From positions 1-29,515 of the IMG/VR virus record IMGVR_UViG_3300013005_005404: a stretch of 29,515 bases of DNA; one strand, written 5' to 3'. A program made the translations under genes and the position numbers. Below the pieces are notes generated by a model. It was not told the origin of the DNA. It ran no database searches and worked only from the letters and a program-made list of their open reading frames with translations. Source of the DNA: a virus. Numbering within the stretch: position 1 is the stretch's first letter; every line of letters begins with the position of its first letter. Of this stretch, positions 7,532-22,103 are shown piece by piece.

Positions 7532-7560
7532 ATTATAAATACTTATTGAAGTGAAATCAA
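7532..7560 (-). promoter_or_regulatory. Early sigma70-like promoter of the replication/recombination operon
   Basis: Minus strand: TTGATT (7560-7555), exactly 17 bases, perfect TATAAT (7537-7532). The predicted +1 is about 7525, the GTG of uvsY. The -10 shares four base pairs with the late box on the other strand and the -35 lies inside the first codons of the divergent gene. It is the best early promoter in the window. Confidence 0.7.
7534..7541 (+). promoter_or_regulatory. T4-type late promoter TATAAATA
   Basis: Exact TATAAATA, the -10 element recognised by gp55-type sigma factors, 17 bases before the GTG at 7551. If it occupies -13 to -6 as in T4, transcription starts near 7547, leaving about 4 bases of leader. 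It overlaps the early promoter facing the other way. Confidence 0.75.
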
Positions 7561-7769
7561 CTGTAACATTTAAACAATATTTTTATGAAAATATGACTGC
7601 AGGTGCAGCACTAGGCGGTAGTAGTGGAGGATTTTCACCTGATAATATATCTGGCTCTGATTTTTATGCACCGGGTGATGCTAGAATACCAAAAGGTGGT
7701 GCAGTATACACCAGAGCTGGTAAGTTAAGACGTAGAAAACGTAAGCAGAAAAATAAATCTAAAAAATAA
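7551..7769 (+). CDS. Small basic protein with capsid-targeting-like N-terminus
   Basis: A 72-residue protein I do not recognise. It begins MKSTVTFKQYFYEN, similar to the T4 internal-protein targeting peptide (MKTYQEFIAE), with a potential prohead-protease cut after YFYE. A Gly/Ser-rich middle (AALGGSSGGF) and the strongly basic tail RRRKRKQKNKSKK follow, which would suit binding to packaged DNA. The GTG start is chosen because the reading frame upstream is occupied by the promoter; an internal ATG at 7593 would remove the targeting peptide. It is the first gene of the late plus-strand block and its stop overlaps the next start (TAATG). Function as a minor internal head protein is inference. 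Confidence 0.65.
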   Translation: MKSTVTFKQYFYENMTAGAALGGSSGGFSPDNISGSDFYAPGDARIPKGGAVYTRAGKLRRRKRKQKNKSKK

Positions 7770-8179
7770 TGGATTTAGGTCACTGGAATACTAGTCTTAT
7801 AATTGAAGAAGGTAATATACCTTACGGGTTTTTATATAAAATAACCTGTATACCCACAGGAAAAAAGTATATTGGTAAAAAACAGTGTAAATCTATACTT
7901 AAAAGGCGTCCACTTAAAGGAAAGAAGAATAAAAGACACGAGGTAATAGAGACTGACTGGAAGACTTATACATCTTCTTCAAGAGAGCTTAACGAAGATA
8001 TATTAAAGTATGGTAAAGATAGCTTTAGTTTTGAGATTATTGAGATTTGCGACTCAAAATTTGCACTAGCATATAGAGAGGCTAAAATTCAATTTGAAGA
8101 GGAGGTACTATTACGAGATGACTATTATAACGGAATCATTAATCTCCGAGTGTCAAAGCCGAAGCGCTATTTGCCTTAA
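7769..8179 (+). CDS. GIY-YIG family endonuclease
   Basis: Probable GIY-YIG nuclease, a class that often acts as a free-standing homing endonuclease in T4-like phages. The motif pair is GFLY (residues about 20-23) and KKYIGKKQ (about 31-38). The module continues with WKTYTSSSREL, an EIIEICDS strand, and YREAKIQFEEEVLL, which should hold the catalytic glutamate, ending in YYNGIINLR. First 'GIY' is FLY, as in many phage members. It is 136 residues, just a nuclease module without an obvious DNA-binding extension. The start overlaps the previous stop, and the next gene starts inside its 3' end. No capsid-targeting peptide is present, unlike its neighbours. Confidence 0.75.
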   Translation: MDLGHWNTSLIIEEGNIPYGFLYKITCIPTGKKYIGKKQCKSILKRRPLKGKKNKRHEVIETDWKTYTSSSRELNEDILKYGKDSFSFEIIEICDSKFALAYREAKIQFEEEVLLRDDYYNGIINLRVSKPKRYLP

Positions 8180-8537
8180 TGAGACATTAAATATTGCGTA
8201 TCAAAAGACACTGTCGCAAGTGATAGATTTAAATATAAACTTCGATATTAGTAATAAAGATGTGCAAAAAATTACTAAACATAATATTATTATTCAGTTA
8301 TGTGAATTAAAAAAAACAATACCACAAAAAACTTATTTATTTATTAGAAGAGAAGAGTATAACGAAAATTATCTTAAAATAGTAGATGAAATTATTAATA
8401 AAATGGAGCTTTATAAGTCAGAAAAAAGTGCTAACTTCTTGAGATCTTTTAATAATTACCTAAAAAAGAACGGGTTTAAGTATATAAGCAGTGTTTATTT
8501 AAAGCAAGTTACTAACAAATTAGCTTTATTTAGATAA
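8118..8537 (+). CDS. Hypothetical helical phage protein
   Basis: Not recognised. The frame is open from a TTG at 8094 to 8537; I chose the ATG at 8118 (MTIITESLIS, 139 residues), which lies 12 bases after GGAGG (8101-8105), one of very few SD-like sites in the window, though the same bases encode Glu-Glu-Val of the GIY-YIG protein. It overlaps that gene by 62 bases in another frame, so a later start is possible. The body is Lys/Asn/Ile-rich and probably helical (QKITKHNIIIQLCELKK, then EYNENYLKIVDEIINKM and FNNYLKKNGFKYISSVYLK). No signal peptide or membrane segment. Its stop lies within the late box of the next gene. Confidence 0.65.
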   Translation: MTIITESLISECQSRSAICLNETLNIAYQKTLSQVIDLNINFDISNKDVQKITKHNIIIQLCELKKTIPQKTYLFIRREEYNENYLKIVDEIINKMELYKSEKSANFLRSFNNYLKKNGFKYISSVYLKQVTNKLALFR

Positions 8538-8540
8538 ATA
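8533..8540 (+). promoter_or_regulatory. Late promoter box GATAAATA
   Basis: NATAAATA match whose first base is exactly 13 bases before the ATG at 8546. With T4 geometry the transcript would begin at the ATG itself, a leaderless message. It overlaps the stop codon of the upstream gene. Confidence 0.6.
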
Positions 8541-8545
8541 TACTT

Positions 8546-8905
8546 ATGAGTAAATTTCTTCAAATAGTGGGTGAAGGACTAGCAAGTGTTGATAACCCTC
8601 AAGCAATTTTTTATATTAAACTAGTTGATGATAAGGGAAATGATGTAGGTTACGAGCCGATACAGCTAAGAGGTACTACCTACGCTGAGGATGTATATTT
8701 TAAAATACAAAATGCTATTAATAAAGGACAAGATATAAATTCTACTCATGAAGAAGATAATGAAATTGAAGCGGCTCAGGTTTTAAGAAAGACAGATAAG
8801 AGAGTAGATAATGAATATAAAAAGAATGAAGCTCTAGCAAAACAAAAAACACCAAAGATTATTGCTGCTTTACAGAGAGATAGACAAACATTAACATCTT
8901 TATAA
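8546..8905 (+). CDS. Small late protein with capsid-targeting-like N-terminus
   Basis: A 119-residue protein, family not recognised. The first residues MSKFLQIVGEGLAS fit a short amphipathic targeting peptide ending in V-G-E before G, the residue pattern cut by T4 gp21 protease. The body is a mixed strand region (AIFYIKLVDDKGNDVGYEPIQLRG) followed by charged helices (EIEAAQVLRKTDKRVDNEYKK). No signal or membrane segment. It is flanked by late boxes on both sides (8533 and 8901), so it may be its own transcription unit. A head-internal or core protein is a reasonable guess. Confidence 0.75.
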   Translation: MSKFLQIVGEGLASVDNPQAIFYIKLVDDKGNDVGYEPIQLRGTTYAEDVYFKIQNAINKGQDINSTHEEDNEIEAAQVLRKTDKRVDNEYKKNEALAKQKTPKIIAALQRDRQTLTSL

Positions 8906-8908
8906 ATT
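8901..8908 (+). promoter_or_regulatory. Late-promoter-like box TATAAATT
   Basis: One mismatch from TATAAATA, 14 bases before the ATG at 8915 and overlapping the upstream TAA. Same spacing class as the exact boxes in this block; weaker because of the final T. Confidence 0.4.
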
Positions 8909-8914
8909 AAGATA

Positions 8915-9652
8915 ATGCCTAAGACCTTACAACTTATATCAAAATATTTTTCTTTGTTGGCAGAGCAGGTTCCGCAGGAAGCAGCACCAGCAGCAGATCC
9001 ATCTCAATTACCACCACAGGAGCAGCCTACTCCTGTAACTAATGAGCCGGTTGTATCAAATATAGATAAAAATGAAAGGTATGTTATTAAAATATTAACT
9101 AATGCTTTTATTTTTAACCCTAATAAGTTTGTAGAAGATAAACAAAAGTATAAGTATATTTTTAATAAAATTGATTCAATAGAGAAAATGGTAAACGTAC
9201 CTGTATCTAAAATTGTAAGAGAAATTAAAAAAATTATTGCTTTAGATAAAAGTTTAAGAATAGAGTCTAAAACTCTTAAAATAATAAATAAATATATATT
9301 TTTATTAGAGCAGCCAGCTGATGCAACTGAGCCGCAAGATGCTATTCAACCGTCACAATCAGGTATTTCACCAAAAGCTGAAAAAGGCAACGCGAGTGAA
9401 GATGATAATAATTTAAACTTAGCGGAGATATTTCCTCTTTACCAAGAATTAATTTTAAAAGCTCTTAGGCACTCTCCTTCAGAAGATGAACTAATGATAG
9501 TAAAGCCGATTGTAAATAATTTTGCTAATGTAGACCCTGAAAAAATAGTTGAAGCTATTCAAGGTATCTTAAAGTTATACCCTTCTAATACCGGTAGTAT
9601 AAGTAAGCATCCGGAAGATGTTGAAGTGGCAGATGATTTAAGTAATGTTTAA
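8915..9652 (+). CDS. Repeat-built late protein with two targeting/cleavage-like segments
   Basis: A 245-residue protein, family unknown, that appears to be an internal duplication. Residues 3-18 (KTLQLISKYFSLLAEQ) resemble residues 119-133 (KTLKIINKYIFLLEQ), and each copy is followed by a Pro/Ala/Gln-rich linker and a helical segment ending in KIV.EI..I (about 99-108) or KIVEAIQGILKL (about 205-220). Both copies contain a possible prohead-protease site (L-A-E or L-L-E before Q), so it could be processed into two pieces during head maturation. The start is set by the late-like box just upstream. No catalytic motif is visible. A scaffold or core role is inference. Confidence 0.75.
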   Translation: MPKTLQLISKYFSLLAEQVPQEAAPAADPSQLPPQEQPTPVTNEPVVSNIDKNERYVIKILTNAFIFNPNKFVEDKQKYKYIFNKIDSIEKMVNVPVSKIVREIKKIIALDKSLRIESKTLKIINKYIFLLEQPADATEPQDAIQPSQSGISPKAEKGNASEDDNNLNLAEIFPLYQELILKALRHSPSEDELMIVKPIVNNFANVDPEKIVEAIQGILKLYPSNTGSISKHPEDVEVADDLSNV

Positions 9653-9680
9653 TTGACGTTTAAAAATATACTAACGCAAT

Positions 9681-11375
9681 ATGCTTAATTTTAAAAAATA
9701 TTTTAATTTACTTCTCGAGGGTGGTAACGTCTTTAAGCAGCACCCTACCCAGCGCATAAATTTATCAGATATTGAACCTACAGTTAGTTTTTTATCTAAT
9801 ATTGTAGGTACTAATTTAATGAAGAATCTGTTAGGTAGTACAGGTAAGCGAGAGTCCTCTGGCGACTTAGATATAGCTATAAATGAAAATAAAATATCTA
9901 AAGTTCAACTCTATGATATTCTTGCTAACTGGTGTATGGAGCGAAATTTAAATCCTAAGGATTATATTGCAAGATCAGGTATAAGCGTTCATTTTAGAAC
10001 TCCTATATATAATAAAGATGGAGAATATGTACAGACTGACTTCATGTTAGTGCCTGACATTAGCTTTGCAAAATTTGTACTAGCAAATGATGAGCCTTTT
10101 CCTTTGAAGGGTGCATATAGAAGTATAGTTTTATCCAACCTAGCAAAAAATCTTAATTTAAGATGGAGTGGCTTAAAGGGTATTACAGATAGACAAACAG
10201 GAAATACTATTGAAAATAAAGATACAGATAGGGTTGCTCAAATATTGTTAGGTGATTCTAATGCTCGTACAAGAAATCTTTTAAACATAAAATCCATTAT
10301 ATCTTTTTTGGTTAAAAAATATAAAGATATAAACATAGTAATGTCGCTTTTAGATGAAGCTAGACAAACTATTAACAGAGAGGGTATAGATATTTTTAGT
10401 AGTAGCGGTGTTATAAAAGAGAGTGTTGATATTACAGGTACACGAGTAGGAGTACAACATTTATACTCTGAATATAAGCCTGATCAATATTCAATGGATT
10501 TTGAAAACTTCGCTAAACTTCTAGATGCATTAGAGCAGTCTAACGGTATTATACAGCCTGGTAATTCAAGTATATCTGAAAAGGCTGATGGAATGTCTGT
10601 TAAGTTTGGCTTAACACCAGAAGATAGATTTTTCTTACAAGGTAGCTATTCCGGACCAGTTACTGACGGCAGCTTTAAAAATAAAATAAGGCATGAACCT
10701 ACCAAAAAAGCGTTTGAAGAAAATTTTCCTAAAATTAAAAAGCTAGTTTATAAGACATTACTAAGATACAAAAAAGATCTAAAATTAGATGGTATAAGAG
10801 TACAGGCAGAATGGCTGTATTCGCCTTTTGCACTATCACGTGATGAGGTTCCAGGTATCGTTTATTTTGTTGCAACAAATTACGAAAGGGATAAACTAGG
10901 CTCCTGGTCTACTTTTCCTCTTATATCCGTAACAGATTACAACGGTCAAGAACTTTCTCCTGAATTAGTAGAAGCTATAACTAGAAGTTTAACGGATTTA
11001 TCAAATGATAATGTTAAATTTATACCTTTAAATATTGACGTCTTCGAGCCTATTAATTTAAAGTATGAAACTGATAACGCAGTACAGGAAATAAAAACCT
11101 TTGAAGCGCAGAATCCAAATTACGAAGAAGTACTCTACAATACTTCAAGAAAAAGAGACGATCAGATAGCTAAAAAGGCAATGAGATCGCATTTAATTAA
11201 GGTACTATTACCCTATCAACGTAGAATGCATACAAAAATTTTACGTAAGTTAGGCAAACTAGCAGGTAAGTTAGGTGACTATGAAGGATTAGTTATAAAA
11301 ATATTACAACAGGGAGAGACATTTACTTTTAAGGTAATATCTCCAACTTTTCATAAAAATAAGGGTCGTATATGA
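9681..11375 (+). CDS. Nucleotidyltransferase - nucleic acid ligase-like fusion, capsid-targeting-like N-terminus
   Basis: A 564-residue two-domain protein. The N-terminus MLNFKKYFNLLLEGG fits a capsid-targeting peptide with an L-L-E/G cut site. Residues about 30-165 resemble a pol-beta-type nucleotidyltransferase: GSTGKRESSGDLDIAI (52-67) supplies the GS and the D-x-D pair, and D120 in VQTDFMLV could be the third acid. The C-terminal half carries ATP-dependent ligase / nucleotidyltransferase motifs: EKADG (motif I, K301 as adenylated lysine), EGLVIK (535-540, motif IV) and FTFKVIS (motif V, K551). The core looks intact, so an RNA or DNA end-joining activity is plausible but the substrate is unknown. 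A weak late-like box (TAAAAATA, 9662-9669) precedes it; its stop overlaps the next start (ATGA). Confidence 0.75.
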   Translation: MLNFKKYFNLLLEGGNVFKQHPTQRINLSDIEPTVSFLSNIVGTNLMKNLLGSTGKRESSGDLDIAINENKISKVQLYDILANWCMERNLNPKDYIARSGISVHFRTPIYNKDGEYVQTDFMLVPDISFAKFVLANDEPFPLKGAYRSIVLSNLAKNLNLRWSGLKGITDRQTGNTIENKDTDRVAQILLGDSNARTRNLLNIKSIISFLVKKYKDINIVMSLLDEARQTINREGIDIFSSSGVIKESVDITGTRVGVQHLYSEYKPDQYSMDFENFAKLLDALEQSNGIIQPGNSSISEKADGMSVKFGLTPEDRFFLQGSYSGPVTDGSFKNKIRHEPTKKAFEENFPKIKKLVYKTLLRYKKDLKLDGIRVQAEWLYSPFALSRDEVPGIVYFVATNYERDKLGSWSTFPLISVTDYNGQELSPELVEAITRSLTDLSNDNVKFIPLNIDVFEPINLKYETDNAVQEIKTFEAQNPNYEEVLYNTSRKRDDQIAKKAMRSHLIKVLLPYQRRMHTKILRKLGKLAGKLGDYEGLVIKILQQGETFTFKVISPTFHKNKGRI

Positions 11376-11905
11376 TAAACTTTAAATTATTTTTCGAGCA
11401 AAATAAAGAATCGGTAGCTATCTTTCCAGGAGGATTTAAGCCCCCTACAAAAGGTCACTTTGAAGCGTTGAACGAGTTATTAAAAAATGCTGATAGAGGT
11501 GTTGTTTTTATAGGTAAAAGTCCACGTGATGGTATAGATCAAGATATGGCATATCAAATATGGACCATTTATGCACCGTATTTATCTAAGCCTATAGAGA
11601 TTTACAAGAGCCCTGCTACACCTCTAAATTCTACTTACGACTATGCTTTAGATAATCCTAGCTTAAATATTATTGTAGGAGCTGGTCCGGAAGATAGTGC
11701 TAGATATAATTCCTTTCGAAAAAATCCTGAAAAATATCCTAACGTTCAAATAATAGATATACCATTAAGCGGTGAAGGTGTACGTGGTACACAAACTAGA
11801 GAAATGATTATGAGTAAAGATCCCTCTTCTTTAGATTTCTTTGTACCTGAAATAATTAATCAGACAGATAAAGAAAGAATTAAGAAGATACTAGTTATAG
11901 CATAA
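11372..11905 (+). CDS. HIGH-type nucleotidylyltransferase (NMNAT/cytidylyltransferase-like)
   Basis: Rossmann-type nucleotidylyltransferase transferring a nucleotide from an NTP to a phosphate acceptor; NMN adenylyltransferase-like by appearance, real substrate unknown. The first motif is GGFKPPTKGHF (20-30) with the T-x-G-H signature, and the second is GVRGTQTR (136-143) in place of the family's ISSTxxR; IIVGAGPED (about 100-108) matches the central loop. The 177 residues are the usual single-domain size. The first nine residues MINFKLFFE followed by Q look like the targeting peptide seen on the neighbours, and an enzyme of this family would normally start at about residue 14 (SVAIFPGG). AAGGG lies 6 bases before the ATG? 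The bases are AAGGG at 11361-11365, a weak SD. ATGA overlap with the ligase-like gene suggests coupled expression. Confidence 0.8.
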   Translation: MINFKLFFEQNKESVAIFPGGFKPPTKGHFEALNELLKNADRGVVFIGKSPRDGIDQDMAYQIWTIYAPYLSKPIEIYKSPATPLNSTYDYALDNPSLNIIVGAGPEDSARYNSFRKNPEKYPNVQIIDIPLSGEGVRGTQTREMIMSKDPSSLDFFVPEIINQTDKERIKKILVIA

Positions 11906-11913: not shown

Positions 11914-12405
11914 ATGTCTACTAGAAAAGATTTTAAAATGCTAGAAGAAGCTTATAGTGATGTAGGCGGTATGTCCCTTACACCCTCTAACATGTTAGGA
12001 GGTAAGCCTGTAATGATAACAATGGATATGCCAGGTGCAGAAGTAGACCACGAAAGTCATAAATCTCATGAAGAGGAACACATGGAGCACGAGGGTGAAA
12101 ATGATCCTAGTGAGATTGAAATGGCATCAGCAGATCTTCATAAGCTTGCAGAGTACGCACCAAAATTAAAAGAAATGGTAAGTCAAATGCAGGGCCTTGA
12201 GGGTTGGATTGCGTCAAAAATTACTAAGGCTTCAGACTATATATCATCCGTCTATCACTGGTTGGAGTATCAACAACACGAGGGTAGCGAAACCGGTAGT
12301 TGTAATCATGAAGAAGGAGACATGTATAATACAGGTCATGAAGATACAGGTTGTTCTTATGCTAGAGAAGGTTGTACTTGTGGAGGTTGCTCAGATTGTA
12401 ACTAA
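11914..12405 (+). CDS. His/Glu-rich and Cys-rich late protein with capsid-targeting-like N-terminus
   Basis: A 163-residue protein with three parts. The N-terminus MSTRKDFKMLEEAYSD has an ideal L-E-E/A prohead-protease site. Residues 45-62 are packed with His and Glu (H46, H49, H52, H56, H59), then a helical segment EIEMASADLHKLAEYAPKL ... EGWIASKITKASDYISSV (68-112) resembles a short module often found in T4-like phage late proteins. The tail from 130 on has six Cys (130, 147, 154, 156, 159, 162) and two more His, a likely metal-binding cluster. No enzyme motif. TAATG overlap with the next gene. A metal-binding internal head protein is inference. Confidence 0.75.
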   Translation: MSTRKDFKMLEEAYSDVGGMSLTPSNMLGGKPVMITMDMPGAEVDHESHKSHEEEHMEHEGENDPSEIEMASADLHKLAEYAPKLKEMVSQMQGLEGWIASKITKASDYISSVYHWLEYQQHEGSETGSCNHEEGDMYNTGHEDTGCSYAREGCTCGGCSDCN

Positions 12406-12845
12406 TGAAAAGCTTTAAGAAATTCTTCGAGGCTACAGTTATAGGTCTAATTGAAAAAATAGAACTGGCTGGAATCGGTTCTCTTGAAGCAAAAATTGAC
12501 TCAGGTAACGGCGCTTATAATGTACTGCATGGTGAGAATATTACTAAACAAGGTAATAAGGTTACCTTTACAACCATAGGTGGTAAAAGAATTATAAAAG
12601 ACGTTCACGATACAATTAATATTAATGTAGGTGCCGGTCATGTCGAAGAAAGACCAGTTGTTACATTTAGAATGAAATTTGCAGGTACAGAGTTTGATAA
12701 TATACCTTTTAGTATTGGTAACAGGTCGCAGAACGAATATAAAGTTCTTATTGGTAAGGACTTTATTAAGCAGCTTGACGCTTTGATTGATGTAAACTCG
12801 AATCATATCGCTGGTGATCAGATTGAAGTTGATTATACCAATTAG
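12405..12845 (+). CDS. Retropepsin-like (RimB/ATP-dependent zinc protease type) protein
   Basis: A 146-residue protein whose residues 12-135 follow the pattern of the single-domain aspartic protease-like family annotated as 'ATP-dependent zinc protease' (RimB/retropepsin-like): an opening VIGLIEKIELAGIGSLEAKIDSG with the D-S-G triad (D32-G34) in the place of D-T-G, a central strand pair RPVVTFRMKFAGTEF, and a final IGNRSQNEYKVLIGKDFI that matches '..R..M..pvLIGR..L'. The N-terminus MKSFKKFFEA is nearly the T4 targeting peptide, with F-F-E/A as cut site. Its last 80 bases overlap the convergent gene at 12766. Enzymatic activity is unproven. Confidence 0.7.
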   Translation: MKSFKKFFEATVIGLIEKIELAGIGSLEAKIDSGNGAYNVLHGENITKQGNKVTFTTIGGKRIIKDVHDTININVGAGHVEERPVVTFRMKFAGTEFDNIPFSIGNRSQNEYKVLIGKDFIKQLDALIDVNSNHIAGDQIEVDYTN

Positions 12846-14126: not shown

Positions 14127-14909
14127 ATGGAATGTTTGGTTTGTAATCGAAAGTTAAAATTTATTAATAATACTCACTTAAAGCAGCATAATATGACTAT
14201 TGAGGAATATAAGCTGATGTTTAATATATCTAAAGTTGTAGACGAAAAACTAAGATTTACCCGCGTTAACTACTGCCGCGGTAAAAGTTATGAAGAGAGA
14301 TTTGGTAAAGAGGTTGCATCGAGAATGAAAGAAATAAGAAAGATAAAGACAACACATCAGATGACAGATTTTAAGCAAATTCAAATACGAAAGAAAAAAT
14401 GCGGTAATTACAAAAATCCAGGTCTGAGAAAAAAACGTATTAAAGAAGCTGCTAACAGACTAGAAACAAAAATAAAGCGTAGAATTTCTATGCATAAGCT
14501 CTTTGAAGCTGGCTATATGACTTCGAGATTTTCTAAGCCTGCATATGAGTTTATTAGAGAGTATATCAGCAATAACAATATAAATGAAGATAAATGTTAC
14601 TACTTAGGCGGTACAAATGACCGTGAGTTCTTTAATATAATAAATAAAAAATATTGTTTTTATGACCTTGTTATCTTTGATGATAATAAAGAAATAAATA
14701 CAATTATTGAAATTAATGGCCCGTGGCACTATACAAAGCGAGACATTTTAAACGACCCGTGGAGTAAAGCTACACCGTATAAGAATGAGAAAACAACCAA
14801 GTATCAATCTTATGTATGGGATCAGCTAAAGTTATCTCGAGCAAAGAAAATATCTAAAAACGTTAAAGTATATTGGCTATATTCAAATATATTAGAAATC
14901 ATTAAATGA
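14127..14909 (+). CDS. Free-standing homing endonuclease, zinc finger plus VSR/PD-(D/E)XK-like nuclease
   Basis: A 260-residue nuclease. The N-terminus is a C2H2-like finger, CLVCNRKLKFINNTHLKQHN, followed by MTIEEYKLMF, the pattern of phage finger domains of the MucR/Ros kind. The middle is strongly basic (residues about 50-130) and probably binds DNA. The C-terminus has YDLVIFDD ... IIEINGPWHY (about 190-215), with the D and E of a PD-(D/E)XK-like site and the WH of the VSR-like EDxHD group, then NEKTTKYQSYVWDQLKLSRA. Such proteins spread between phage genomes by cutting recipients lacking them. It separates folE from queD, which fits insertion of a mobile gene. Its stop lies two bases before a late box. 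Confidence 0.75.
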   Translation: MECLVCNRKLKFINNTHLKQHNMTIEEYKLMFNISKVVDEKLRFTRVNYCRGKSYEERFGKEVASRMKEIRKIKTTHQMTDFKQIQIRKKKCGNYKNPGLRKKRIKEAANRLETKIKRRISMHKLFEAGYMTSRFSKPAYEFIREYISNNNINEDKCYYLGGTNDREFFNIINKKYCFYDLVIFDDNKEINTIIEINGPWHYTKRDILNDPWSKATPYKNEKTTKYQSYVWDQLKLSRAKKISKNVKVYWLYSNILEIIK

Positions 14910-14910
14910 T

Positions 14911-14918
14911 TATAAATA
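14911..14918 (+). promoter_or_regulatory. T4-type late promoter TATAAATA
   Basis: Exact TATAAATA, 13 bases before the ATG at 14924. It argues against the upstream in-frame ATG at 14906, which would be 5' of the box. Predicted transcript begins at the ATG. Confidence 0.7.
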
Positions 14919-14923
14919 TATGT

Positions 14924-15775
14924 ATGCAAAAAATATCTCAGAAAGAGCTTTTAGATGAAGGCTTTCTTAACACTATACGAAAAATTACTAGTCCTATAGC
15001 TAAGACTGTTGCCGGTGCTGCTGGAGCTGCAAAAGGGATAGCGAAAGTTGTAGCACCTAATCTCTCTCAAGCGATAGGTAGTGATATTAATAAAATTAAA
15101 TCTATAGGTAAGAGTGCATCTGATGCATTTACAGCAGAAAAAAATAAACAAATTAATTCAACACCGGAGAGATTTGTAGAAAATGAATTAAAGACTAACT
15201 GGACAAAGGTATTTGACCCTGCCTCAATAAAAGTAACCAGTAAGCAAAATGCTGCTCCTATGAGCCATAAAAGCTTTCGTTTATCTAAAGTTAATAAGTT
15301 TTTTATATATTTTGAGGCAAATCGTTATAAAAAACAAGGCGGAGTTGAGGTGTTTAAGGGTAATGCGGCAATAAGTAAGGGCAGTGATGGTAAGTTTACT
15401 TTAGAGGATATTGAGGATAATAATGGTAACAGCATATCTAATTCAGGCTCTAATGAAACCTTACCAAAGCTCGACGACCTAATGAAAAAATTGAATTTCA
15501 ATACTACTAACTCAACTGCGAGTAAATGGGCTACAGCTTTAAAGCGAACCTTTAGAGGTGGAATAAGAGACCCGAGAAAAGAAATAGATACATTAATACC
15601 TGCTGCAGCAAATAATGATAATTACGTCCTTACGACGGCTGACGTAGATACCCTAAGACAATATCTTAAAGATGAGTTTCTAATATCAGAAAAAAATAAT
15701 CAAAAAGATTTACTATTACAGTTGAAATTACTAAACGACTCATATAATAAAACATATGAGTTATCAAAGCACTAA
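14924..15775 (+). CDS. Late protein with capsid-targeting-like N-terminus, unknown family
   Basis: A 283-residue protein I do not recognise. With the start set by the late box it begins MQKISQKELLDEGFLN, an ideal prohead-protease target (L-D-E/G). An Ala/Gly-rich stretch (TVAGAAGAAKGIAKVVAP, about 20-45) that could be an amphipathic or membrane-active helix follows, then a mixed alpha/beta domain with SFRLSKVNKFFIYFEANRYKK and an RGGIRDPRKEID segment, and a Lys-rich helical end. No catalytic motif. It looks like a packaged internal protein similar in design to those at 7551-12845, but outside that block. Its end overlaps the queD start by 20 bases, so the two are probably co-expressed. Confidence 0.75.
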   Translation: MQKISQKELLDEGFLNTIRKITSPIAKTVAGAAGAAKGIAKVVAPNLSQAIGSDINKIKSIGKSASDAFTAEKNKQINSTPERFVENELKTNWTKVFDPASIKVTSKQNAAPMSHKSFRLSKVNKFFIYFEANRYKKQGGVEVFKGNAAISKGSDGKFTLEDIEDNNGNSISNSGSNETLPKLDDLMKKLNFNTTNSTASKWATALKRTFRGGIRDPRKEIDTLIPAAANNDNYVLTTADVDTLRQYLKDEFLISEKNNQKDLLLQLKLLNDSYNKTYELSKH

Positions 15776-19240: not shown

Positions 19241-19972
19241 ATGCGAATAGCTTTCTCAGGTACTGCAAATACAGGAAAAACAACTCTTATTAAAAATTTC
19301 TTAGCTGTTTGGTCTCAATATACGACTCCAGAAAAAACATATAGAGATCTAATAAAAGAAAAAAATTTATCTCATTCGTCTGCTACCACTACGGATACAC
19401 AGTGGGAGATTCTTAACTTTATGATTGACCAACTTCAATCATATGATAAAAACTCTAAAGTAGTTTTTGATAGATGCCCACTCGATAATCTAGCGTATAC
19501 ATTATGGGCACATGATAAAGGTATTGATGGATTTGATAAAAAATATGTAGATAAATGTATCACCCTTACTAAGGAATCAATGAGACATTTAGATATCATT
19601 TTTTTACTTCAATACGATGAGTCTATTAAAGTCCAAGATGATGGAGTTAGAGACACAGATATACAGTATATAAAAGAGATAGATAATATATTCGCTGCTT
19701 TATTCGCGCAGTACGAACAGAATTATGATGCTGATATATTTTTTCCAAAAGATGATTCACCTGGCGTAATTATACTTCCGGCTAATCCTCAAAGACGTAT
19801 CGATATTATCTCAGAATATATTAACATGGATGGTGAGCTATATGGAGATGAGCATTCCTTGTTTAACCCTGAGAAGCTAGATGAACTCGAAGCTCTCGTT
19901 AAGCAGCAAAAAGCTGCTCTAGACCAAGAAGAAAAGGAAAAAGAGTTATTTAAAAAGTTCGGTCTTAGTTAG
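19241..19972 (+). CDS. P-loop nucleoside/nucleotide kinase-like protein
   Basis: A 243-residue P-loop NTPase of the NadR/dNMP-kinase-like group. Walker A is GTANTGKTT (7-15) and VVFDRCPLDNLAY (74-86) carries the D-R-x-x-x-D element of these kinases; LLQYDESIKVQDDGVRDTD (about 130-148) matches the lid region with R. Likely substrate is a nucleotide or nucleoside, not determinable here. The C-terminus is a charged helix (ELEALVKQQKAALDQEEKEKELFKK). It is the last plus-strand gene before the convergent tail fibre and overlaps it by 8 bases. Confidence 0.8.
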   Translation: MRIAFSGTANTGKTTLIKNFLAVWSQYTTPEKTYRDLIKEKNLSHSSATTTDTQWEILNFMIDQLQSYDKNSKVVFDRCPLDNLAYTLWAHDKGIDGFDKKYVDKCITLTKESMRHLDIIFLLQYDESIKVQDDGVRDTDIQYIKEIDNIFAALFAQYEQNYDADIFFPKDDSPGVIILPANPQRRIDIISEYINMDGELYGDEHSLFNPEKLDELEALVKQQKAALDQEEKEKELFKKFGLS

Positions 19973-22103
19973 CAGACTCAAGAGCTTCTATTCTACTTTG
20001 TAACTCTTGATTTTTTGTTGAGAGCTCTTGAACTGCTTTAATAAGCGGTCCTATAAATGAACTATAACCTAACGATAGAACATCTGCACCGCCGTTAACT
20101 TTCATATCTTGATATCCGTCAAAGTCAACATTAAGTTCATCCGCTGCTTGTTTAACTTCCTGTGCTATTAAGCCTTGATGATATCTCTTACCTGCTTGTG
20201 AACCGTCTTTAGGTAAGAATGTTTTTGTAACCCGATCATAATAGTTTTCTCTTAGATCATATCTATATTCTACAGGTCTTAGTTTACTTATAAAGTTTAA
20301 TCCGAGTTGAGTATCTTTAATATCAACTTTATCTCTAGCATCGGAGATTGTTTGAACGACACCACCCTTAACGAATGTGTCAGAGTTACCATCACCAAGC
20401 ACGATTTGATTTGATCTATTAATAAGTGCATTCAGACCTATAGCTACCGAATTTGTAATAGGTATAGAGCTAGCAGAGAAGAATCCAGAGTTACGACCAA
20501 TACATATAATATCAGAAGCTCCTCTTGTATTTTGGGTATTAGCTCCGGAATTGTTACCTATGTGAATGCAATTATTACCAGATAGCATTTGCGACCCAGC
20601 GTAATAACCTAAAGCTACATTAAACTCTCCACTAAGAGCATTTGTCGTAGCTCCTGCTTGCCCTAATGCATTAAAACCTATACCTACATTATAATCTGAA
20701 CTTCTTGCTAGTCTCTCACAAGCATTAGTACCGATAGCGATATTATAATCTGCTCCAGACGCCATATAGGTAGCAGTAGAATATCCTATAGCTATGTTAC
20801 CAGTAGCAGTTGTAGATGTATCGGTCATTACATTATAACCAATAGCAGTATTACCGAATCCTGTTTGCATTTTTCGAAGCGCGTTAGCACCTACTGCAAT
20901 GTTACCAAAGCCTGATGTTAAATCATCAAGAGAATTAACCCCTACAGCAACGTTATCACTACCTGTATTAGAACCAGCGCTTAGCACGGTGTTATTGTTC
21001 ATAACACTATATCCAACTGCGACGTTGCGCTCCGCATTTGTTATTTTACCAAGCGTAAAAGCACCAACTGCTACGTTACTGTTACCAGTAACAGTATTAG
21101 TGCTCATTGTCTCTAAACCAACACCTACATTATAAAATCCAGTTGTAAGACGCTGCAACGAACCACGACCGAGTGCTACGTTTTGATGACCAGTTGTTAT
21201 AGTAGTGAGAGCTTCACGACCAACCGCTACGTTACCGTAGCCCGTTACATTACCTAAATGCATTGATTCAGTACCTAGTGCAACGTTATAAACACCTACT
21301 GTAATTCCCTGACCAGCACTTAAACCAACACATGTATTTTGCGAACCTGTAGTTAAATTATCCAGTGAATCGGTTCCAATGCCAACGTTGTTACTACCAG
21401 TAACATTACCCTTACTCATAACACTAGCACCTATACCAATGTTACGATCTCCACCTGTAAGTCTATTTAGAGCGTCACGACCTACGGCTAGGTTGTAATT
21501 ACCTGTAACAGTACTAAGGCTCATAACAGATGCACCGATACCTATATTGTAAAACCCTGTTGTTAGGTTATCTAGTGCATCTTTACCTATCGCAATGTTA
21601 TTATCGCTAATAACATTCTTTTGACTCATTACACTCTGACCTATTGCAATGTTACTATCTCCAGTAGTTAAATTAGCTAGTGCTTGTCTACCAATACCAA
21701 TGTTGTAGGTGCCATCTGTAATCTTATCTAGAGTATCTGATCCTATTCCTATATTACCTATACCGACAACACGACCCTGACTCATCGAGCTCTTACCTAT
21801 AGCAATGTTATCTAAGCCAGTAGTTATATTAGTACCCACTTCAATACCTACAAGTACGTTACTACCACTTAAATTATTAACGAATGTTTGGGTAATAGCG
21901 GATAGTTGAGTAATTTGCGTTTGAAGACTAAAAATTAACGGCGCAAAAGTGGTGTTTTCTAGAGTTATGATAAAATCACTAAAGTCTAGTATATAAGTGC
22001 CTTCATCAGGCTTTTCGACTATGAGATAATTTCCAGTTGCAATATCTAAAGCTTGAGGAAGATCTAAGATATTAGTATAAGTTGATGTATTGCATGATGC
22101 CAT
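19965..22103 (-). CDS. Tail fibre with beta-roll repeats and S74 intramolecular chaperone
   Basis: A 712-residue adhesin-type tail fibre. An N-terminal part (1-75, with TFAPLIFSLQTQITQLSA, a possible trimer coil) presumably joins the virion. Residues about 75-575 are some 27 short units of the type N-[IV]-[AG]-[IVL]-G followed by 8-10 residues, the pattern of YadA-like head repeats that fold as a left-handed beta-roll in a trimer. Residues 587-712 form a peptidase S74 chaperone: SDARDKVDIKD at its start (S587 and a Lys as the self-cleavage pair), LRPVEYRYD, HQGLIAQEVKQA and a terminal coil. The chaperone releases itself after trimer folding. An AATAAATA box 16 bases before the ATG makes it late. 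It probably sets host range; sugar genes follow divergently. Confidence 0.92.
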   Translation of the reverse strand: MASCNTSTYTNILDLPQALDIATGNYLIVEKPDEGTYILDFSDFIITLENTTFAPLIFSLQTQITQLSAITQTFVNNLSGSNVLVGIEVGTNITTGLDNIAIGKSSMSQGRVVGIGNIGIGSDTLDKITDGTYNIGIGRQALANLTTGDSNIAIGQSVMSQKNVISDNNIAIGKDALDNLTTGFYNIGIGASVMSLSTVTGNYNLAVGRDALNRLTGGDRNIGIGASVMSKGNVTGSNNVGIGTDSLDNLTTGSQNTCVGLSAGQGITVGVYNVALGTESMHLGNVTGYGNVAVGREALTTITTGHQNVALGRGSLQRLTTGFYNVGVGLETMSTNTVTGNSNVAVGAFTLGKITNAERNVAVGYSVMNNNTVLSAGSNTGSDNVAVGVNSLDDLTSGFGNIAVGANALRKMQTGFGNTAIGYNVMTDTSTTATGNIAIGYSTATYMASGADYNIAIGTNACERLARSSDYNVGIGFNALGQAGATTNALSGEFNVALGYYAGSQMLSGNNCIHIGNNSGANTQNTRGASDIICIGRNSGFFSASSIPITNSVAIGLNALINRSNQIVLGDGNSDTFVKGGVVQTISDARDKVDIKDTQLGLNFISKLRPVEYRYDLRENYYDRVTKTFLPKDGSQAGKRYHQGLIAQEVKQAADELNVDFDGYQDMKVNGGADVLSLGYSSFIGPLIKAVQELSTKNQELQSRIEALESAN
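20380..21880 (-). repeat. Degenerate coding repeats of the tail fibre
   Basis: About 27 imperfect repeats of 39-90 bases, visible on the plus strand as recurring ACCTATnnCAATGTTA-like words, encode the beta-roll of the fibre. Units are often paired (a '...LTTG.YN' unit and a '...VTG.SN' unit). They are divergent at the DNA level, so they have probably not been freshly duplicated, but they give a substrate for recombination that changes fibre length. Confidence 0.8.

Follow-up and report, generated by a model that had tools for sequence, protein, structure and literature searches.

The gene and its family

The window analysed here, a 29,515-nt (29.5 kb) virus fragment held in IMG/VR as IMGVR_UViG_3300013005_005404, comes from an uncultured T4-like phage. 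It carries the gene of a two-unit protein, P0001, the parts of which are given in Table 1. The gp46-like protein of the window matches 2953 INPHARED records, every one of them at less than 60% identity, and the first-listed match, in Synechococcus phage BUCT-ZZ01, stands at 29.5%. Other neighbours in the window, judged by their sequences, presumably include uvsW, uvsY, gp55 and PhoH.

Table 1. Features of the P0001 gene, and the following gene (positions in the window; residues of P0001)
Feature	Position	Strand	Basis
Two-unit protein P0001, 245 aa	8915..9652	+	ORF and translation; gene in 34 contigs
Targeting-type peptide at the N-terminus, KTLQLISKYFSLLAEQ (residues 3-18); protease presumed to cut after E17	8921..8968	+	E17-Q18 invariant in 27/27; model helix 3-16; core at other N-termini
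Linker 1, Pro/Ala/Gln-rich, residues 19-49	8969..9061	+	Sequence; pLDDT <50 for 15-47; length variable in the family
Helical domain 1, residues 50-112, helices 52-66, 76-91 and 97-109	9062..9250	+	AlphaFold2 (27 sequences), block pLDDT 82-89; conserved motif KILTNAFIFNP
Internal peptide copy KTLKIINKYIFLLEQ (residues 119-133); E132 possibly followed by a protease cut	9269..9313	+	Repeat statistics; E132-Q133 invariant in 27/27; model helix 113-131
Linker 2, residues 134-166, begins PADATEPQ	9314..9412	+	Sequence; pLDDT <50 for 133-164
Helical domain 2, residues 167-222, helices 173-185, 190-201 and 208-221	9413..9580	+	AlphaFold2, block pLDDT 69-83 over 171-220; conserved
C-terminal tail, short helix 233-243	9581..9649	+	AlphaFold2, block pLDDT 48-54
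Following gene; its N-terminus has the family core (MLNFKKYFNLLLE followed by GG), its body is unrelated	9681..11375	+	Best non-family match of the family N-peptide core

Scans of the viral_contigs collection recovered family members with as little as 39% identity to the window protein. The internal peptide is present in all 34 contigs and both copies in 33, the lone exception being a sequence cut before its N-terminus. The family alignment (A6, 27 rows) omits several duplicates of included sequences from other contigs, together with the truncated L014, and residues invariant throughout it include K3, E17, Q18, E117-S118-K119-T120, E132 and Q133, among others. No relative of P0001 was matched by tblastn against INPHARED, and of 118 matches in a pattern scan of genome_contigs none was confirmed as belonging to the family. 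No single-unit relative appeared among the 32 loci that a search restricted to domain 2 recovered, one of which is truncated ahead of its N-terminus, and no paralogue of domain 1 or domain 2 rose above the inclusion threshold in the ORF sets examined.

Searches with the P0001 model by Foldseek gave no match in PDB or BFVD at E 0.001 or better, and the best VIA-align score (Z 4.3) lies within the chance level of helical bundles. A PDB sequence search returned no match, and PHROG and Pfam searches with the 27 family members, in which the IPI, IPII, IPIII and Alt families were not compared individually, returned no convincing one. Stray PHROG and Pfam matches of family members were rejected, as was a Pfam histone match of P0001 (E 0.016, 15.9 bits, below the cut-off of 26.4).

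Two related peptides within one protein

The peptide repeat in P0001 is real, conserved and far above chance. The relatedness of the peptides at residues 3-18 and 119-133 had been remarked on in the first-pass annotation, and both are found at these residues and are homologous by self-alignment as well as by profile. In Smith-Waterman alignments the two peptides score 41 against each other (shuffles 15.2 +/- 3.7), while unit 1 (residues 1-118) and unit 2 (119-245) score 61 (shuffles 32.2 +/- 5.9), and in each comparison 1 of 2000 shuffles scored equally. Column shuffling of the profile alignments gave no equal score in 400 trials for the units, nor in 400 for the peptides. In hhalign, the comparison of whole unit with whole unit reaches E 5.8e-8, with the match carried by the peptide.

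The internal copies were also scored with a profile built from 20 N-terminal copies, against 76,274 peptide windows drawn from the 327 ORFs of the window and of the related records G001 and G002, minus the family's own proteins. Twenty of 21 internal copies outscore all of these, and the remaining one is exceeded by 9. The ORF sets consist of longest non-overlapping frames of at least 60 aa, uncurated, with G002 scanned to base 120,000 of 121,925, and family proteins are excluded from the scans with the N-terminal, core and internal-copy profiles alike. An HMM of the N-terminal peptide finds two matches within each of three family proteins; its best match outside the family (E 0.015) is G001 48859-49284, where the tag-like stretch is the N-terminus. 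When the comparison is confined to single proteins (19 family members), the internal copy beats all other 15-mers of its own protein body in 15 members and does not do so in 4.

The N-terminal copy as a probable capsid-targeting sequence

According to PMC9026906, each targeting sequence of phage T4 is a short tag at the N-terminus of an internal protein, from which it is removed. The propeptides of these proteins are 10-19 residues long, the cleavage site of gp21 lies after L/I-x-E and, in IPIII, residues 4 and 7 are important for targeting and residues 8 and 10 for processing. The N-terminal copy of the P0001 family has this form, with a glutamate at position 17 in 27/27 sequences and L or I two residues before it in 23/27. 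Its core, moreover, is common to unrelated proteins: with a core profile trained on the family only, the N-termini of other proteins make up 5 of the top 10 peptide windows against 0.5 expected, and 12 of the top 50 against 2.5, counts in which several of the matches are orthologues of one another. The gene that follows P0001 bears the same core in front of an unrelated body, which supports the idea of a portable tag.

A gp21-type protease (PF03420) scores over the cut-off in 7 of the 11 records searched and gp23 is found in 5; the window, a 29.5 kb fragment and one of the 11, holds neither. Four major capsid ORFs in the searched records have MTE, LTE, IQE or CNE before an alanine near residue 60, plausibly a gp23-type cut. 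As the core recurs at unrelated N-termini and the protease is encoded in related records, the N-terminal copy is consistent with a T4-type capsid-targeting sequence. The first-pass annotation had spoken of a targeting peptide.

A further argument for the tag comes from the cyanophage S-SCSM1, whose NMNAT, according to PMC9602691, was found in virions by mass spectrometry. The N-terminus of this enzyme reads MKSFLQFLKEA and that of its S-SSM7 homologue MKSFGQFLTEA. Against this argument counts a caution voiced by the authors of PMC10665884, that such enzymes may be highly expressed proteins which were not separated from the virions.

The internal copy and a possible second cut

The internal copy ends in [LIVMFY]-x-E followed by Q in all 27 sequences, and the residue at P3 is L or I in 19/27 internal copies, compared with the 23/27 of the N-terminal copies and 20% at all glutamates. 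The cleavage-like L-L-E to which attention had been drawn earlier is part of a protease-type end kept throughout the family. The motif alone is nevertheless weak, since [LIVMFY]-x-E is true of 39% of all glutamates and E171 fits equally well (26/26); another conserved site of this kind is E178 (24/26). A protease cut after Glu132 is possible.

The two copies differ in their aromatic residues. The first core position is F in 18/27 N-terminal copies and in none of the internal ones, which have no aromatic residue there in 27/27, and one residue past the Tyr position an aromatic stands in 20/27 N-terminal versus 2/27 internal copies. The N-terminal copy of the window itself has I at the first core position, so that the contrast between F and no aromatic belongs to the family and not to P0001 itself. 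The constant lack of a leading aromatic suggests that the internal copy is perhaps no working targeting signal, and a profile made from it is weak at recovering other N-termini (11 among its top 100, with 5.0 expected). The internal copy is best described as a derived copy, in which targeting may have been lost and which, located away from the N-terminus, is not classed here as a targeting sequence.

An internal translation start for unit 2 is unlikely, since ATG, GTG and TTG are all absent from the codon that precedes the internal copy (27/27). The eight codons further upstream are likewise free of these in the window, and some relatives have a TTG two codons further up.

In a sample of cyanophages, with S-SCSM1 scanned except for about 129,000-178,800, the targeting motif occurred internally 17 times where 21.5 would be expected, which is no enrichment, and internal tag copies as a general cyanophage trait were rejected. 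Two cases with the motif in unusual places were seen, two only: S-SCSM1 gene 93 (L128 11627-11836), annotated as virion protein 93, has a tag-like C-terminus (RTFKEFLEYIE), and S-CREM1 gene 220 (L127 7283-7930) has a tag-like start together with an internal MMSFSQFMEA.

The two-unit layout and its possible origin

AlphaFold2 run with the 27 sequences gave a model with mean pLDDT 62.0 and pTM 0.49, an earlier model (pLDDT 52.5) having been poor. The predicted order is helix 3-16, loop, three helices, helix 113-131, loop, three helices and a short end helix, so the succession of peptide helix, linker and three helices occurs twice. Composition and model together bear out the earlier observation that each copy precedes a Pro/Ala/Gln linker and a helical domain.

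The two domains themselves are not significantly alike in sequence. Compared by sequence alone, 155 of 2000 shuffles score as high; compared by profiles, 16 of 400 do, with the alignment out of register; and hhalign assigns probabilities of 6.3% and 2.6%. Sequence homology of the two helical domains accordingly finds no significant support, and whole-protein duplication is not established. The tandem duplication of a whole internal protein put forward in the first-pass annotation has on its side the same predicted helix order in both units, and against it the absence of significant sequence likeness between the domains and of a single-unit relative among the loci recovered. The self-alignment which that annotation suggested is significant for peptides and units and finds nothing significant beyond the peptide. 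Duplication of a whole unit is plausible, and fusion of two tagged genes is an equally good account.

A proposed mechanism and its alternatives

The reading that we favour, at about even chances, is that P0001 is a T4-type internal head protein, of the core or ejection class, that has a working N-terminal tag and a decayed second module and is cut at Glu17 and perhaps also at Glu132. Its N-terminal amphipathic helix would serve as the capsid-targeting sequence that brings P0001 into the prohead core, where a gp21-type protease would take the helix off after Glu17. P0001 would hold a second copy of the module made of peptide helix, flexible linker and three-helix domain, whose origin may lie in a duplication within the gene or in the fusion of two tagged genes. 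Having lost its leading aromatic, the second peptide would now probably connect the two domains as a helix, and it would perhaps also be a second protease site, after Glu132. What the analysis shows is the repeat, its conservation, the predicted order of helices and the protease gene in related records; the packaging of P0001, both cuts, its origin and any function that it might have after infection are what we infer.

A less probable but serious alternative is that the repeat is structural only, the internal helix being a hinge or oligomerisation helix that is never cut, so that the protein stays in one piece. In the model, helix 113-131 does start just a few residues past the end of helix 97-109, and the aromatic residue is missing from the internal copy; by itself, however, this reading leaves the invariant E-Q end common to both copies unexplained. 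As to the internal peptide, an uncut structural helix and a cut at Glu132 seem about as likely as each other.

Clearly less likely is a long propeptide, in which cuts after Glu17 and Glu132 would discard unit 1 and leave unit 2 (residues 133-245) as the sole mature protein. According to PMC10052503, the N-terminal propeptides of head proteins in the giant phage SPN3US mostly measure 111-254 residues, a range into which 132 falls, and some have several cut sites; hydrophobic-x-E stands at E132 in 27/27 sequences. Such a fate for unit 1 fits poorly with the conservation of domain 1, which is at least that of domain 2 (mean column identity 72% vs 63%, the latter with the variable tail included), and with the short propeptides of T4 internal proteins described in PMC9026906.

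The first-pass annotation had itself proposed a polyprotein that may be cut in two; that both halves would stay in the head and be ejected as separate mature proteins we hold to be comparably unlikely. The model predicts two structured units with a flexible linker before each, and E-Q is invariant at both copies; against this, the halves are never separate genes among the 34 contigs. Similarly doubtful is its fuller form, a capsid polyprotein in which the tag would have been duplicated with its cargo domain, would bind the core at two points and would undergo two prohead-protease cuts that yield two ejected proteins. Finally, a chance resemblance of two amphipathic helices, to which the unlike domains and the 4 of 19 proteins with copies that do not stand out might point, is highly improbable, being contradicted by the scan (0 of 76,274 peptide windows as high for 20/21 internal copies), by the column shuffles (0/400) and by the N-peptide HMM.

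Relation to known systems

Like the P0001 family, T4 IPI-IPIII and Alt have a short N-terminal peptide ending in hydrophobic-x-E, and in both lineages the core is common to unrelated proteins and a gp21-type protease is encoded (here in related records). Unlike these proteins, P0001 has a second, internal copy of the peptide and a body without convincing PHROG or Pfam likeness, and its packaging is presumptive. With SPN3US gp47, gp53 and gp54, which have multiply cut long propeptides, P0001 shares a possible cut about 110-140 residues in, in addition to an early cut. It differs from them in belonging to a T4-like lineage, in a unit 1 that repeats the layout of unit 2, and in that its cut is predicted. 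The T4 core proteins gp22, gp67 and gp68 are also helical and possibly cut more than once by gp21, whereas the P0001 gene lies beside uvsY/uvsW-like ORFs and outside the head cluster. In the relatives, that cluster has what we take, from position and sequence, to be gp22- and gp67-like ORFs of its own.

Tag, protease and internal proteins belong to a class already described. The further copy within the protein, conserved as it is, is a variant for which no description was found, duplicated or internal targeting sequences being absent from the portions of the literature searched. A conserved internal copy suggests that duplication of a tag can either include its cargo or insert the new copy into it, and the repeat gives an exact, testable prediction on the specificity of the prohead protease of these uncultured T4-like phages. 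Through the tag, uncharacterised genes of such phages can also be flagged as likely head-packed.

Mosaicism and other ORFs with tag-like stretches in the neighbourhood

Compared with the related record L002, the window contains mosaic islands of about 35-91% identity, at 8101-9780 and 10401-11350, in a backbone of 99-100%. Along the first of these, identity falls from 99-100% to 35-82% over 8101-9100, rises to 91-98% over 9101-9300, a block that takes in the greater part of domain 1 and reaches into the internal copy, and drops again beyond it. Allele swapping at the P0001 gene would be consistent with a host-directed internal protein. Upstream, window 8546-8905 and L002 4459-4863 occupy the same slot and share the tag MSKFLxIV..., with bodies that have no detectable similarity (BLASTP E 0.44); in this slot the tag is kept and the cargo swapped.

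Further ORFs of the window have tag-like starts. The 564-aa ORF at 9681-11375 begins with the targeting-type start MLNFKKYFNLLLEGG and matches an RNA ligase only weakly (phrog_968, E 0.085); L124 has in this slot an 833-aa ORF with a similar start. A cytidyltransferase/NMNAT-like ORF at 11372-11905 (PHROG_395, E 1.6e-5) starts with MINFKLFFEQ, also of targeting type. At 12405-12845, an ORF with a Pfam Zn_protease match (PF05618, E 3.2e-7, above the cut-off) and the targeting-type start MKSFKKFFEA possibly encodes a packaged protease-like protein. The 72-aa ORF at 7551-7769, which gave no match in INPHARED, starts with TFKQYFYEN and has a very basic tail, and similar ORFs occur in L124 and G002.

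Two observations concern ORFs further downstream. Close to the start of the ORF at 14906-15775 lies the stretch ISQKELLDEGF, and in PHROG this ORF weakly matches a DNA-ejection pilot protein (phrog_8689, E 0.0036). On the minus strand, 19965-22103 is a 712-aa ORF with many NIAIG/NVAVG-type repeats, the end of which, judging from its sequence, presumably resembles an intramolecular chaperone.
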